A stretch of 54,300 nt of DNA from Sphingobacteriales bacterium. Lineage in GTDB: Bacteria; Bacteroidota; Bacteroidia; Sphingobacteriales; Sphingobacteriaceae. The notes beneath the pieces were generated by a model. That model was not told the origin of the DNA. It searched no databases and saw only the letters and a program-made list of their open reading frames with translations. The position numbers and the translations under genes are program-made. The stretch is taken from the NCBI GenBank assembly GCA_013298995.1, contig JAAFJW010000003.1, forward strand, positions 1-54,300, in the 5' to 3' direction. Of the stretch, positions 20,820 to 32,459 are shown piece after piece (within the stretch, counting starts at the first letter, position 1; each line of letters opens with the position of its first letter).

Positions 20820-21806
20820 TTGGCAATAAAAATAGCTTCTTTTTTTAAATTTATTATTGCTATTATTTTTGTTTTTGCCTTTTGTACGGCATCGGCGCAA
20901 AGCCTCCAAAAATATACCTATGAAATAGGTTTTAAAAGCGATAATGATGCCTATTTGGCAACCAAGCAAGACCGTTATTATACCAACGGTATATTTATTT
21001 ATATGCGTAAAGCATTACAAACCAAATCGAAGCAAGATACCAGCACATTTGTAAAAAAAATATGGAGCATAAGTGCTGGGCAAAAAATGTTTACTGCTAG
21101 GTCGGGTAAAACTGCGTTTATAGAAAACGTAGATAGACCAATTACCGCTTATTTATACGGCAGTACAGCCTTACAGTGGCATTTTAAAACCGAAACTTTT
21201 TTAAAAACCGAAATACAAATAGGCACAATAGGCCCCAATGCGCTAGGTAAGCAAACGCAAGAATTTATACATACTGCGTTTAATTTTTATAAAATTAATG
21301 GTTGGCAATACCAGCTAAACAATGCTTTGGGTGTTAACCTAGTGGTTGATTATCAACGTTTATTTTACCGTAGCCAAAACAAAAAATCCGATTGGGCTAT
21401 TCCGTTTCAACTACGTATAGGCAATACTTTTTCGGGAGGTAGTGCTGGCGTATTGTTTCGAACGGGTAATATTAACCCTTTTTACCATTCGTATGCTACC
21501 GAAAGTACGGTTTCAGTAGCTACATTAAATCATAAAATAAAAGCCCAAGAGTTTTATTTGTATGCAAAGCCTGTTGTTAACTTGGTATTGTACGATGCTA
21601 CCATACAAGGTGATATGTTTAAAAATTACGAAAAAGAGGTAGTTTATCAGCCTATTCCTTGGGTATTTAGTCAAGAAATAGGAGCTAGTTACAGCAAAAA
21701 TCGTATTGCCTTTAATGTTTCCTATATATTTAAAACACGTGAAATAAAAAGTAAGGCAATAAGCCATAAATATGGCTCTTTTAGCATGTTGTATAGGTTT
21801 AATTAA
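20820..21806 (+). CDS. LpxR-like lipid A 3'-O-deacylase (DUF2219)
   Basis: The 328-residue product is an outer-membrane beta-barrel of the LpxR family, which removes the 3'-acyl chain of lipid A. Evidence is a signal peptide (IIAIIFVFAFCTASA before QS), SDNDAYLATKQDRYYTNG corresponding to the catalytic Asn-Asp region, IGTIGPNALG, and TQEFIHTAFNFYKINGWQYQL with the conserved His. The start must be the TTG at 20820, since a stop lies at 20790-20792 and no in-frame ATG precedes the signal peptide. It stands alone. Confidence 0.85.
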   Translation: MAIKIASFFKFIIAIIFVFAFCTASAQSLQKYTYEIGFKSDNDAYLATKQDRYYTNGIFIYMRKALQTKSKQDTSTFVKKIWSISAGQKMFTARSGKTAFIENVDRPITAYLYGSTALQWHFKTETFLKTEIQIGTIGPNALGKQTQEFIHTAFNFYKINGWQYQLNNALGVNLVVDYQRLFYRSQNKKSDWAIPFQLRIGNTFSGGSAGVLFRTGNINPFYHSYATESTVSVATLNHKIKAQEFYLYAKPVVNLVLYDATIQGDMFKNYEKEVVYQPIPWVFSQEIGASYSKNRIAFNVSYIFKTREIKSKAISHKYGSFSMLYRFN

Positions 21807-21872
21807 AGACTTACTAGTGTTGGAATGGAAACCCTAAAATTTTGTTAAAGGTTTAGCCTTGTGTATCAAATA

Positions 21873-22025
21873 ACCTGAGCTCGATTAATAAATACTGTTT
21901 TTGTAATAATTAGGGCGTTACCTGCCTGCGCAGGCAGGTAACGCTACCGTCGTTAACGTTATAAAAACTTGATTAACATGTATTTATATAAAATTATACT
22001 ATAGTTTAATCATCGTAACTCAGGT
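21873..22025. repeat. Inverted-repeat element with perfect 30-bp core palindrome
   Basis: The 153-base unit begins ACCTGAGCTCGATTAAT and ends so that its reverse complement begins ACCTGAGTTACGATGATTAA, giving imperfect terminal inverted repeats. Its centre at 21915-21944 is a perfect palindrome with arms GCGTTACCTGCCTGC. It has no ORF. Related partial copies lie at 161-201 and 31345-31443, so it is a dispersed, MITE-like or REP-like element. Confidence 0.8.
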
Positions 22026-22115
22026 AAATAGGCATTTAAAACACCAATATTCAGCTCCGAAAGTTTAATTATTAAAGCCTTAATTATGCCTTTTGGCTTG
22101 CTGTATCATAACTTT

Positions 22116-22147
22116 ATTGTGTAAAACCTTGTACACAATTTTATTTT
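22116..22147 (+). terminator. Possible terminator hairpin
   Basis: ATTGTGTA (22116-22123) and TACACAAT (22132-22139) are perfect arms followed by TTTTATTTT. It lies 310 bases after the LpxR-like gene, so assignment to that gene is uncertain. Confidence 0.4.
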
Positions 22148-22250
22148 GCAAAACCACGTGTTTTAGGGCTTGTATTTTTTGGGGGCGGGTTTTTACCAAT
22201 AGGCGGCATAGGATTTAATTGATTATAAAGTAAAAAAGCGTATAAAAAAG

Positions 22251-22639: not shown

Positions 22640-23212
22640 CTATTTATTATAACAGTTTCTACACAACGGTTCGTAATTTTCTTTTTCGCCTAGCAAAACT
22701 TGATTTTTATTATCTACCAATCTATAGCTATACAATGCCGCACCACCACAACGCATACAAACAGCGTGTACTTTGGTAACATCCTCGGCAATGGCCATTA
22801 AAGCAGGCATGGTTCCAAATGGCTTCCCCTCAAAGTCCATATCTAAGCCCGCTACCAAAACCCTAATACCTTTATTGGCAAGTTTTATACATACATTGGG
22901 TAAATTGGTATCAAAAAATTGGGCTTCGTCAATCCCTACCACTTGTGCATCACCTACATACAATAGTATCGACAATGAATTATCAACACTTATTGCCTTT
23001 ATAGAATTAGCATTATGCGATACTACATCGGTTTCGTGGTAGCGGGTATCAGTTGTAGGTTTAAATATTTCAACGGATAGTTTTGCTATTTGAGCCCGCT
23101 TTAATCGCCGTAAAAGTTCTTCGGTTTTGCCCGAAAACATCGAACCACATATCACTTCTATACTTCCACTATTGGTGCTTATAGCTTTATTGGCGGCAAA
23201 ATTATTTGTCAT
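22640..23212 (-). CDS. tdk: Thymidine kinase
   Basis: Thymidine kinase phosphorylates thymidine for the salvage pathway. The P-loop [14 protein letters not shown] is at about 23-36, and the catalytic Glu is in [11 protein letters not shown]. The lasso and zinc site are shown by [15 protein letters not shown] and LCRNC, which supply the four Cys. It has 190 residues, normal for the type II enzyme. It follows the TspO-like gene on the same strand but beyond a terminator. Confidence 0.97.
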
Positions 23213-26434: not shown

Positions 26435-26692
26435 ATGGATACTAAGCTTACATTGTCTTTTGATGAGGCAATAATAATTAAAGCAAAAAATTTTGCTGAG
26501 CGTAATAATATAAGTTTGTCTCGCATGATTGAACATTTATTAAGCAAAGTTGTTGAGAAGCCTTATCAATCTTTAGATGATTTTCCTATTTCGGATTGGG
26601 TAAATATAGTTGCAGAAGGTAAGGCCATTTATCAAACTAAAAACCTTAAAAAAACATCATTAAAAGATGAATTTTTTGCATCTAAAAAATGA
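26435..26692 (+). CDS. Antitoxin of the DUF6364 family
   Basis: The 85-residue product begins MDTKLTLSFDEAIIIKAKNFAERNNISLSRMIEHLL, a ribbon-helix-helix fold typical of DUF6364 antitoxins. Such proteins bind DNA through the N-terminal strand and neutralise the toxin with the C-terminal tail. Its stop overlaps the start of the PIN gene by 4 bases (ATGA), the standard layout of a VapBC-like operon, and it probably represses its own promoter. Confidence 0.88.
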   Translation: MDTKLTLSFDEAIIIKAKNFAERNNISLSRMIEHLLSKVVEKPYQSLDDFPISDWVNIVAEGKAIYQTKNLKKTSLKDEFFASKK

Positions 26693-27117
26693 AAATTTTT
26701 TTAGATGCAAATGTTTTGGTTGCCATATTAAACAAAGAATATCCCGTTTTTTCGTACGCTGCTCGCATTTTAAGCTTAGCCGATAATCCAAAATTTACTA
26801 TATACACTTCGCCTGTTTGTTTAGCAATAGCATACTATTTTGCCGAGAAAAAAACTTCGGCCAAGGTTGCAAAAACTAAAATCAACTTGCTTTTACAACA
26901 TATTTTAATTGCAGAAAATAGCAAATTGGGTGTTATAAGAACCTTAGAAAACAAAAAAATTTTAGATTTTGAAGATGGATTAGAATACTATGCAGCTGTT
27001 GAAAATAAATGCCGATGTATAGTTACAGAAAATTTAAAGGACTTTCATTTTTCAGAAATAGAAGTTATTAATTGCGAAGATTTTGCGGTGAAATATTTCA
27101 TAAAACAACCTTTGTAA
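26689..27117 (+). CDS. PIN-domain toxin (VapC-like)
   Basis: The 142-residue product starts MKIFLDANVLVAILNKEYP with the first acidic residue of a PIN nuclease, and has LDFEDGLEYYAAVENKCRCIVTENLKDF carrying the central and last acidic residues (ED...N/D). PIN toxins cut tRNA or rRNA. It is translationally coupled to the DUF6364 antitoxin. All key acidic positions seem intact, so it is probably active. Confidence 0.88.
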   Translation: MKIFLDANVLVAILNKEYPVFSYAARILSLADNPKFTIYTSPVCLAIAYYFAEKKTSAKVAKTKINLLLQHILIAENSKLGVIRTLENKKILDFEDGLEYYAAVENKCRCIVTENLKDFHFSEIEVINCEDFAVKYFIKQPL

Positions 27118-31100: not shown

Positions 31101-31253
31101 GGTTAAAAAACAGAACTATAAAAATATAAATAGTAGCTGGCGAAAAAAGTAAAGGCTTAACTTTTAATAGGTGTTTTTTAGGTACTAACCCCAGTTACAA
31201 TGTATAAATATTGTTTGTAAAAAAATGGTTTTAAACGGAATAACAGTACATTA

Positions 31254-31283
31254 ACTACTTGTCTGCAGGCAAGTAGTTTTTTT
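31254..31283 (+). terminator. Rho-independent terminator of pgm
   Basis: CTACTTG and CAAGTAG arms enclose a near-palindromic TCTGCAGG and are followed by eight T. Confidence 0.8.
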
Positions 31284-31312
31284 TCTTTATAGTCCCTTTT
31301 TTCTTTTTCTTT

Positions 31313-31335
31313 GGGGGCTAGGGGGAGGGCTAGGG
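31313..31335 (+). other. G-quadruplex-type G-rich tract
   Basis: The strand has G runs of 5, 5, 3 and 3 separated by CTA, A and CTA. This meets the usual four-run pattern for an intramolecular quadruplex and is striking in AT-rich DNA. Confidence 0.6.
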
Positions 31336-31344
31336 AAAAAAGAT

Positions 31345-31443
31345 GCCTGCCTGTGCAGGCCGCTGCCGTTGTTAACGCTATAAAACCAAAAAAACATTTA
31401 TTTACAGTAAATTATACTGTAAATAAATCATCATAACTCAGGT
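31345..31443. repeat. Half copy of the dispersed inverted-repeat element
   Basis: It begins at the central palindrome GCCTGCCTGTGCAGGC and aligns with the right half of the element at 21873-22025 (shared GTTAACG, TATAAAA, AAATTATACT and the AACTCAGGT end), about three quarters identical by eye. Inside, ATTTATTTACAGTA (31396-31409) and TACTGTAAATAAAT (31415-31428) are perfect 14-bp arms. It ends 2 bases from the gap stop codon, so it could double as the gap terminator. Confidence 0.75.
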
Positions 31444-31445
31444 TA

Positions 31446-32459
31446 TTAGCTATGGGCAGCGTAGTTTTTTTGCATCAAAATTTCGGCAACATCTGCTAGG
31501 CGATTAGCGTAGCCAAACTCGTTATCGTACCAGCCTACAACTTTAACCAAGCCACCTACTATGGAGGTTAATTGCGCATCAAATATACATGAGTGTGGGT
31601 TATCAATAATATCAACAGATACAATCGGGTCTTCGGTATATTGTAAAATACCTTTCAAATTTGTTTCGGCGGCTATTTTAAAAGCTAAATTTATTTGGGC
31701 AACTGTAGCAGGAGGGGTTTTAAGAATACAGGTAAAATCTGTTAGCGAGCCATTTAAAACAGGTACACGTATGCCAGCTCCGCCCAAGCGACCTGTTAAA
31801 TGTGGGAAAATATGTGTTATAGCTTTCGCCGCACCTGTGGTAGTAGGAATAATTGAAGCCGAAGCTGCCCTAGCTCGGCGTAAATCGCGGTGTGGGGCAT
31901 CGTGTAGGTTTTGGTCGCCCGTCATCGAGTGTACAGTGGTAATATAACCGTCTTTAATTTTCCAATTATCATCTAAAATTTTTACCAATGGGGCTACGTT
32001 ATTTGTAGTACACGATGCGTTCGAAATTATAGGTAACTGCCAATTAAAGTTTTGGTTATTAATGCCCAATACAACGGTTGGTATATTTTTATCGGGCGAT
32101 GGTGCGCTAAGCAATACCTGTTTTGCGCCAGCTATAATATGTTTTTGGGCGTTTATATTATCTAAAAATTTACCAGTAGCTTCAATTACCAAATCTATTT
32201 TTAGGCTTTTCCAAGGTAAATTTTCGGGCTTTGATTCCGAAAAAACCTCAATAATTTTTTGATTAACAATTAGCGAATGGCTATCGAAACTAATACCTCC
32301 TTTAAAATTACCGTGAATGCTATCGTACTTAAACAAATGTGCTAAAGTTGCGGTATCGCCTACATCATTTATGGCTACTACGCTAATATTTTGCTTTGTT
32401 AAAAGCGTACGTAACACCATTCTACCTATCCTACCAAAACCATTAATTGCAATTCTCAT
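31446..32459 (-). CDS. gap: Glyceraldehyde-3-phosphate dehydrogenase, type I
   Basis: GAPDH oxidises glyceraldehyde 3-phosphate in glycolysis. The NAD-binding INGFGRIGRMVLR is at 4-16, the catalytic Cys is residue 150 in SNASCTTN, and the conserved HSMTGDQ, RRARAASASIIPTTTGAAKA and WYDNEFGYANR blocks follow. It has 337 residues, full length. The gene is monocistronic and has a -7 box directly before its ATG. Confidence 0.97.
   Translation of the reverse strand: MRIAINGFGRIGRMVLRTLLTKQNISVVAINDVGDTATLAHLFKYDSIHGNFKGGISFDSHSLIVNQKIIEVFSESKPENLPWKSLKIDLVIEATGKFLDNINAQKHIIAGAKQVLLSAPSPDKNIPTVVLGINNQNFNWQLPIISNASCTTNNVAPLVKILDDNWKIKDGYITTVHSMTGDQNLHDAPHRDLRRARAASASIIPTTTGAAKAITHIFPHLTGRLGGAGIRVPVLNGSLTDFTCILKTPPATVAQINLAFKIAAETNLKGILQYTEDPIVSVDIIDNPHSCIFDAQLTSIVGGLVKVVGWYDNEFGYANRLADVAEILMQKNYAAHS

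Follow-up and report, generated by a model that had tools for sequence, protein, structure and literature searches.

The unit at positions 21873-22025 of the window (the whole stretch of 54,300 nucleotides from a Sphingobacteriales bacterium that was analysed) is, judging from its sequence and that of its relatives, very probably a MITE that was mobilised in trans by an IS982-family transposase, with the Flavo-1 motif as its cargo and with a core that has collapsed in this copy. A preliminary description of the stretch had proposed, among other readings, a non-autonomous mobile element. That reading is borne out: the family is short and dispersed, has terminal inverted repeats and no transposase ORF, creates a fixed 5-bp target-site duplication, has corresponding empty sites and shares its ends with an autonomous IS982 partner.

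The copy in the window, a collapsed form of 153 bp (21873-22025, left to right end on the + strand), is situated where two ORFs converge (20820-21806 and 22640-23212), between their 3' ends. It opens with ACCTGAGCTCGATTAAT and closes with ...GTTTAATCATCGTAACTCAGGT, its inverted ends are ACCTGAGTTCGATTAAT, and AAATA is found on either side, as the left (21868-21872) and right (22026-22030) copy of a 5-bp target-site duplication. The left terminal inverted repeat (ACCTGAGCTCGATTAAT, 21873-21889, + strand) has near-identical counterparts at the ends of IS982 elements; the right one (22004-22025, - strand) reads ACCTGAGTTACGATGATTAAAC on that strand. In the interior we find a perfect 30-bp palindrome, GCGTTACCTGCCTGCGCAGGCAGGTAACGC (21915-21944), with an 18-bp palindrome, CCTGCCTGCGCAGGCAGG, nested in it (21921-21938). 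On both sides of it there are remnants of a Flavo-1 core, namely the GGGCGTT side (21913-21919) and the other side, CGCTACCGTCGTTAACG (21942-21958). Both were recognised by reading against long copies, the former also from the Rfam result on the long copies, and both are on the - strand, which is the Flavo-1 sense strand in the window copy. The right arm (21959-22003, + strand) is related to the right arms of other MITE copies. The ORF list of the window has no entry of at least 60 aa that overlaps 21873-22025. The termini starting with ACCTGAG, the perfect palindrome and the lack of an ORF are all as first described.

Two further copies lie in the window. The second, a long form with a decayed left end and an altered core, was placed at 31188-31443 (+ strand), because the family profile matches 31315-31443 and a decayed left end can be read leftwards, at 31188; it is flanked by the TSD-like TACTA (31183-31187) and TATTA (31444-31448), found by eye. 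The preliminary description had taken 31345-31443 for the other half of the unit: the sequence is indeed related, but it is the right half of this longer copy, which had been missed. The third is a left-end fragment near the contig edge (155-202, - strand), found as a profile match. A repeat search aligned 161-205 with 21870-21914 at 93%, and the recurrence of one end at 161-201 noticed earlier is real, in inverted orientation. Beside this fragment, about 70 bp are nearly repeated near the start of another contig (window 1-150 versus G000:C46:1-350, L423); this may be another repeat, at which the assembly breaks.

The genome of the window (G000) is a 98% complete draft of 2.78 Mb in 211 contigs. 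Searching it with 21873-22025 gave at least 61 matches with E <= 1e-3, which by our own count fall into about 40 distinct places; this is a lower bound, since scores were computed for only the best 40 of 130 candidates, from which the copy at 31188 is missing. The possibility that only few copies exist, raised in the preliminary description, can be set aside. When at most two mismatches are allowed, the 17-bp left end occurs 44, 84, 10 and 6 times in four genomes, and the same end read backwards does not occur in any of the four. BLAST with the window copy (at most 14 candidates scored per genome) gave strong matches in four of the 18 genomes of the genus, which are G000 and its sister genomes G004, G015 and G016, and a single weak match of 37 bp outside the genus. 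Long sibling copies of the MITE measure 213-287 bp.

Target duplications, empty sites and the IS982 partner

To characterise the target duplication, we used 32 copies (20 from G000, 7 from G004, 3 from G015 and 2 from G016; one-ended copies were excluded). Exact 5-bp repeats flank 12 of them, compared with a mean of 2.0 and a maximum of 7 when the flanks were re-paired in 2000 shuffles, and among the other lengths from 2 to 9 bp none stands out. The duplicated target is A/T-rich. An exact 5-bp repeat is missing in the remaining 20 copies, which is to be expected only if many copies are old.

We then joined the flanks of 18 insertions in G000 and searched them in G015 and G016, scoring the best 40 of 255 and 40 of 180 candidates. 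Unoccupied sites with both flanks continuous were found for five of the 18 insertions. Two are clean (L029/L237, with the target TATTT once, and L002/L240, with TATTA once) and three diverge somewhat at the junction (L017/L235; L012/L241, located in a short tandem array; L013/L239). The other 13 queries were one-sided, uninformative (L009, and L055 with a shortened query) or without a listed match. The boundaries and target duplications, which according to the preliminary description should be checked on aligned copies, are consistent: the same terminal inverted repeats, a 5-bp duplication and empty sites in sister genomes. At one of these sites the insertion (L002:1501-1661, compared with L240 in G016) appears to interrupt a coding-like sequence that may be GtrA-like.

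The window copy itself has no listed empty-site match, and the similarity with G015 and G004 ends at window position 22232 (about 1.1 kb of each were covered beyond it). This point is about 200 bp past the MITE (22026-22232), which suggests a rearrangement between the MITE and a putative thymidine-kinase-like gene. In other parts of the sequences we noted two small overlapping ORFs of 85 and 142 aa (window 26435-27117) that resemble an antitoxin and PIN-domain toxin pair and, in G004, a SAM riboswitch (L042:2582-2686) that scores 77.2 bits and has a MITE copy some 1 kb away.

The IS982 family comprises elements of about 1 kb with terminal ACC. In named genomes, the 19-base end ACCTGAGTTCGATTAATAA was found in at least 119 stretches, and the organisms of the 119 listed ones are all Bacteroidota or of the neighbouring Balneolales/Balneolia type. 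In five listed loci (L285, L322, L297, L307 and L328) a second end follows at 1004-1041 bp; the ends of L285 and L322 are ACCTGAG, and L297 differs at one end (GCCTGCG). L285 is flanked by the 5-bp repeat TACTA and L322 by TATTA. Their transposases match the NCBIfam IS982 model NF033520 (cut-off 130) with 262.5 bits (E 3.5e-78) for L285 and 275.0 bits (E 5.7e-82) for L322, and both also match Pfam PF13612. By eye, the frame in L297 resembles these transposases; a simple reading of L307 and L328 gave no full-length transposase frame.

A transposase gene with the same ends, which the preliminary description had suggested looking for, is present in named genomes, and copies or pieces of such a gene lie beside these ends in the three sister genomes. 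In G015, 205 aa of an IS982 transposase (75% identical) adjoin a MITE-type end and run to the end of contig C81. In G004, transposase pieces of 27 aa adjoin a MITE-type end at the contig ends of C50 and C134, and in G016 degenerate IS982 transposase copies abut such an end on C56 and C26. Three contigs of G004 (L202, L206 and L228) break off at almost one position, within some 95 identical bases that begin with a MITE-type end, as a recent multi-copy element would produce. In the 98% complete draft of G000 we found no IS982 transposase; the lone match is weak (E 4e-4, 34% over 59 aa). Since no such transposase was seen there, the idea that the element still moves in the window's own genome is not supported, and the copy at 21873-22025 is probably a relic that is no longer active.

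The MITE and the autonomous IS982 elements of about 1.0 kb share some 17-20 bp of inverted ends. Past the first 20 bp or so, the MITE arms are by eye unlike the IS ends, so the MITE may not have arisen by a simple internal deletion of the IS elements compared here. Short elements of 97-285 bp with IS982-type ends and other interiors are seen at L256, L263, L267, L274, L276, L284, L287, L288, L289, L304, L315, L317 and L324, in Pedobacter, Reichenbachiella, Aquimarina, Balneolaceae and other hosts; MITEs with these ends look widespread.

Flavo-1 inside and outside the element

Between the arms of the 213-287 bp copies there are versions of GGGCGTTTTAACACGCC-GTCCGCTGTATCTTTTT-[hairpin]-AAAAAGGATGCCGCTACCGTCGTTAACGC, in the same orientation in all copies that we read. 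Rfam identifies this core, on the other strand, as Flavo-1 (RF01705), for which the gathering cut-off is 42 bits. The cut-off is exceeded at eight of the ten tested loci with a core; in the other two (L091 and L096) the 18-bp palindrome is inserted. One of the eight, the two-ended MITE L042, reaches 45.0 bits; beyond these ten, the MITE at G000:C29 reaches 54.3 bits, and L266 and L305 reach 46.8 and 45.2 bits. The window copy gives no Rfam match at the gathering score and stays below the covariance threshold of Flavo-1. The proposal that the unit belongs to a family of structured RNAs or protein-binding sites therefore holds in so far as the interior of the long copies is Flavo-1, but the window copy itself has lost it.

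Among 16 short elements (97-497 bp) with the same ends in named genomes, only L266 and L305 contain a Flavo-1 that reaches the gathering score. When the sequence behind the 121 end matches in the 119 listed loci of named genomes was searched for the motif, two further loci were added, L310 and L348. All four come from Sphingobacteriales bacterium PH2015_01D_34_72, which matches G004 in 1509 of 1509 bases at one locus. Two other identities of the core were considered and rejected. For a 23S IVP/four-helix-bundle system in a variable loop, PF05635 has two matches in G000, and inspection of their flanks by eye revealed no such core beside either; for an integron attC site, the ends of the core, on reading, do not fit the 7-bp core rule.

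Flavo-1 is far from confined to the MITE. Of 60 genomes, the window's own included, 37 have an Rfam match to it with E <= 1e-3, and in 29 of them it is above the cut-off. Since it is present in 18 of the 18 genomes of the genus and the MITE was detected in four of these, the MITE looks like a younger association than Flavo-1 in the genus. Flavo-1 has 65 matches in G017, 32 in G057 and 45 in G030, and none of the 39 loci examined there (20, 15 and 4, respectively) shows MITE arms; with G045 included, no arm was detected by a profile search in 40 Flavo-1 loci of G017, G057, G030 and G045. At least one arm was found with E < 1e-4 at five of the 30 Rfam-ranked Flavo-1 loci of G000, one of which (G000:C29) belonged to the training set of the profile. 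Two more of the 30 show a faint right arm only (E 8e-4 and 9e-4), and the right-arm matches at L188 and L184 (E 0.7-0.9) were taken as chance.

With so many matches and examined loci that are armless, Flavo-1 multiplies somehow apart from the MITE. One could therefore imagine that Flavo-1 itself is the mobile unit, spread by a specific mechanism such as a hairpin-recognising recombinase, and that the ACCTGAG arms are merely a common flank in this clade. We consider this very unlikely for the copies described here: the 5-bp duplications and the empty-site junctions lie at the ACCTGAG ends and not at the edges of Flavo-1, and the same ends bound IS982 elements as well as short elements without Flavo-1. 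More plausibly, an element with IS982 ends would have captured a Flavo-1 unit once, in an ancestor of the four genomes of the genus (2.2-2.8 Mb), and the IS982 transposase would then have copied Flavo-1 around as cargo.

Orthologous Flavo-1 loci were compared in 11 alignments, each of which pairs G000 with either G015 or G016. Identity is 710/748 in the scaffold, 1758/2200 in the nearest 100-bp flanks, 5272/5726 farther out and 304/405 in the hairpin. If the doubtful pair L183/L411 is left out, the values are 657/680 for the scaffold, 1656/2000 for the near flank, 4984/5368 for the farther flank and 273/354 for the hairpin. One G000 locus was used twice, and L180/L049 (collapsed in G016) and L189/L221 (match off the core) were excluded; for 18 of the 30 loci in G000, the loci compared from G015 (30 of 52) and G016 gave no match longer than 300 bp. 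Between orthologous loci, the Flavo-1 scaffolds are conserved above their near flanks, which indicates that part of the wider family is under selection. This would also fit a repeat that binds a host regulator or a nucleoid protein and is no transposon at all, with the terminal inverted repeats and the palindrome as binding symmetry. Such a reading can apply to Flavo-1 itself, not to the whole MITE, for which it is still less probable than mobility of Flavo-1 as such: it is at odds with the target-site duplications, the precise empty sites, the ends shared with IS982 and the lineage-restricted copy number.

Whether Flavo-1 acts as RNA or as DNA was addressed with base pairs from Flavo-1 copies of several genomes. 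In the hairpin stems of 113 copies, 1853 pairs are of the Watson-Crick type and the single mismatches number 29 (6 G-T, 5 A-C and 18 other), which shows no RNA-like excess of wobble pairs. The scaffold pairs, parsed in 101 of the 113 Rfam-found copies (the window copy is not included), vary with compensation. Five of seven have at least two common Watson-Crick types, and G-T exceeds A-C by 14 to 1, a ratio that is biased because the RNA model used to find the copies tolerates wobble pairs on the strand concerned. Only the scaffold thus has a wobble excess, with this bias, and Flavo-1 may act as RNA or as DNA.

The nested palindrome and the proposed collapse of the core

The nested 18-bp palindrome CCTGCCTGCGCAGGCAGG has 48 exact copies in G000, 15 in G015 and 4 in G016 and is absent from G004, G017, G007, G003 and G057; its reversed sequence, used as a control, does not occur in any of these eight genomes. 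At two orthologous Flavo-1 loci, G016 and G000 differ in their palindromes. L046 in G016, compared with L184 in G000, has CCTGCCTGCGCAGGCAGG and a 20-bp palindrome as extra insertions exactly in the loops. At L049 in G016 there is a palindrome alone, and at the corresponding L180 in G000 the whole core. In the short MITE copies L002, L003, L009 and L014 the junction is as expected for a deletion between two such palindromes, and by reading, the junction in the window copy is of a related type, with CGC as the short shared sequence. The perfect 30-bp palindrome is found in four of the 22 copies examined, in three sequence versions (L001, L004/L015 and L010), and the differences between the versions are mirrored in both arms.

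From the comparison of copies and the two orthologous loci we infer that the 18-bp palindrome inserts into the hairpin loops of Flavo-1, and that the core is afterwards reduced to one palindrome by a deletion between palindromes or between short repeats; the window copy would be in this state. The 30-bp palindrome would accordingly be what is left after entry of the 18-bp palindrome into a hairpin loop and deletion of the rest. As first reported it is real and perfect, although its probable nature as a collapsed core was not recognised at that time.

The palindrome CCTGCCTGCGCAGGCAGG is also held by a second dispersed repeat of G000 (L422, L421, L425, L432 and L437), which contains CTAAACCCGACAG or TACTGTCTTAAAAAGC adjoining it and is not Flavo-1-like. 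Because it occurs within this second, seemingly unrelated repeat as well, the 18-bp unit looks like an independent nested element. Perfect dispersed palindromes, one of them nested and with 48 exact copies, may bring to mind REP/REPIN sequences spread by a RAYT (Y1 HUH) transposase; this is possible for the 18-bp palindrome alone, but as an account of the whole unit it is the least likely of all, since 17-bp terminal inverted repeats with a fixed 5-bp duplication are not generally expected of REPs, and the ends belong to a DDE element, IS982.

A wider reading, which we put forward as possible but rather doubtful, is that the IS982 MITE seeds new Flavo-1 modules, some of which outlast the decay of their arms, so that transposition would be one source of an orphan "RNA" family of Bacteroidota. 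In that case a conserved folded scaffold on one strand would be the active part of Flavo-1, and the long variable hairpin, which would be kept symmetric at the DNA level, would be a landing site for nested palindromes. The signs that could point this way are the arms at 5 (plus 2 faint) of 30 loci in G000 against 0 of 40 elsewhere, the scaffold conservation and the mismatch ratios of hairpin and scaffold.

Known systems and the meaning of the cargo

The closest relative that we found in kind is MITECca01 of Cardinium cOegib, an IS982-derived MITE (PMC9769881). It also has a Bacteroidota host, measures circa 240 bp, has no transposase, has ends like those of its IS982-family parent ISCca4 and is present in multiple copies. 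However, it comes from a different host lineage, the main text of that paper does not contain Flavo-1, and according to the same text MITECca01 keeps 5 bp of its parent beside the left end, whereas the family in the window, as far as we see, shares only the ends. A MITE of Porphyromonas gingivalis with a minisatellite is likewise a Bacteroidota MITE with internal cargo, but it is a different element (PMC4596501).

As for Flavo-1, it has been regarded since 2010 as a probable structured RNA that is not cis-regulatory (Weinberg et al. 2010, PMC2864571), and in that paper the lone mention of transposition is in the row of another motif, Transposase-resistance. A review from 2022 still gives no function for it (PMC9029176). 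In the transcriptome of Flavobacterium psychrophilum, Flavo-1 matches are reported to be found indistinctly in sense and antisense, many of them outside transcribed regions (PMC9723704). The long MITE copies agree with RF01705 in that they score above its gathering cut-off and have the same scaffold; they differ from it in that a transposable element houses the motif, which is no longer present in the window copy. We found no paper that joins Flavo-1 to a transposable element in the literature searched, which was mostly that outside subscription journals and without preprints. In summary, IS982-derived MITEs in Bacteroidota and Flavo-1 as a probable RNA are both known, and no MITE with Flavo-1 as its cargo came up in that literature.

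The element is thus ordinary in kind, and its cargo is informative, as it represents one concrete route by which Flavo-1 spreads between genomic sites. The filled sites and their empty counterparts in sister genomes are places where an effect of Flavo-1 on neighbouring genes could be tested. The finding also calls for caution in counting Flavo-1 "genes", some of which can be copies of a transposon.
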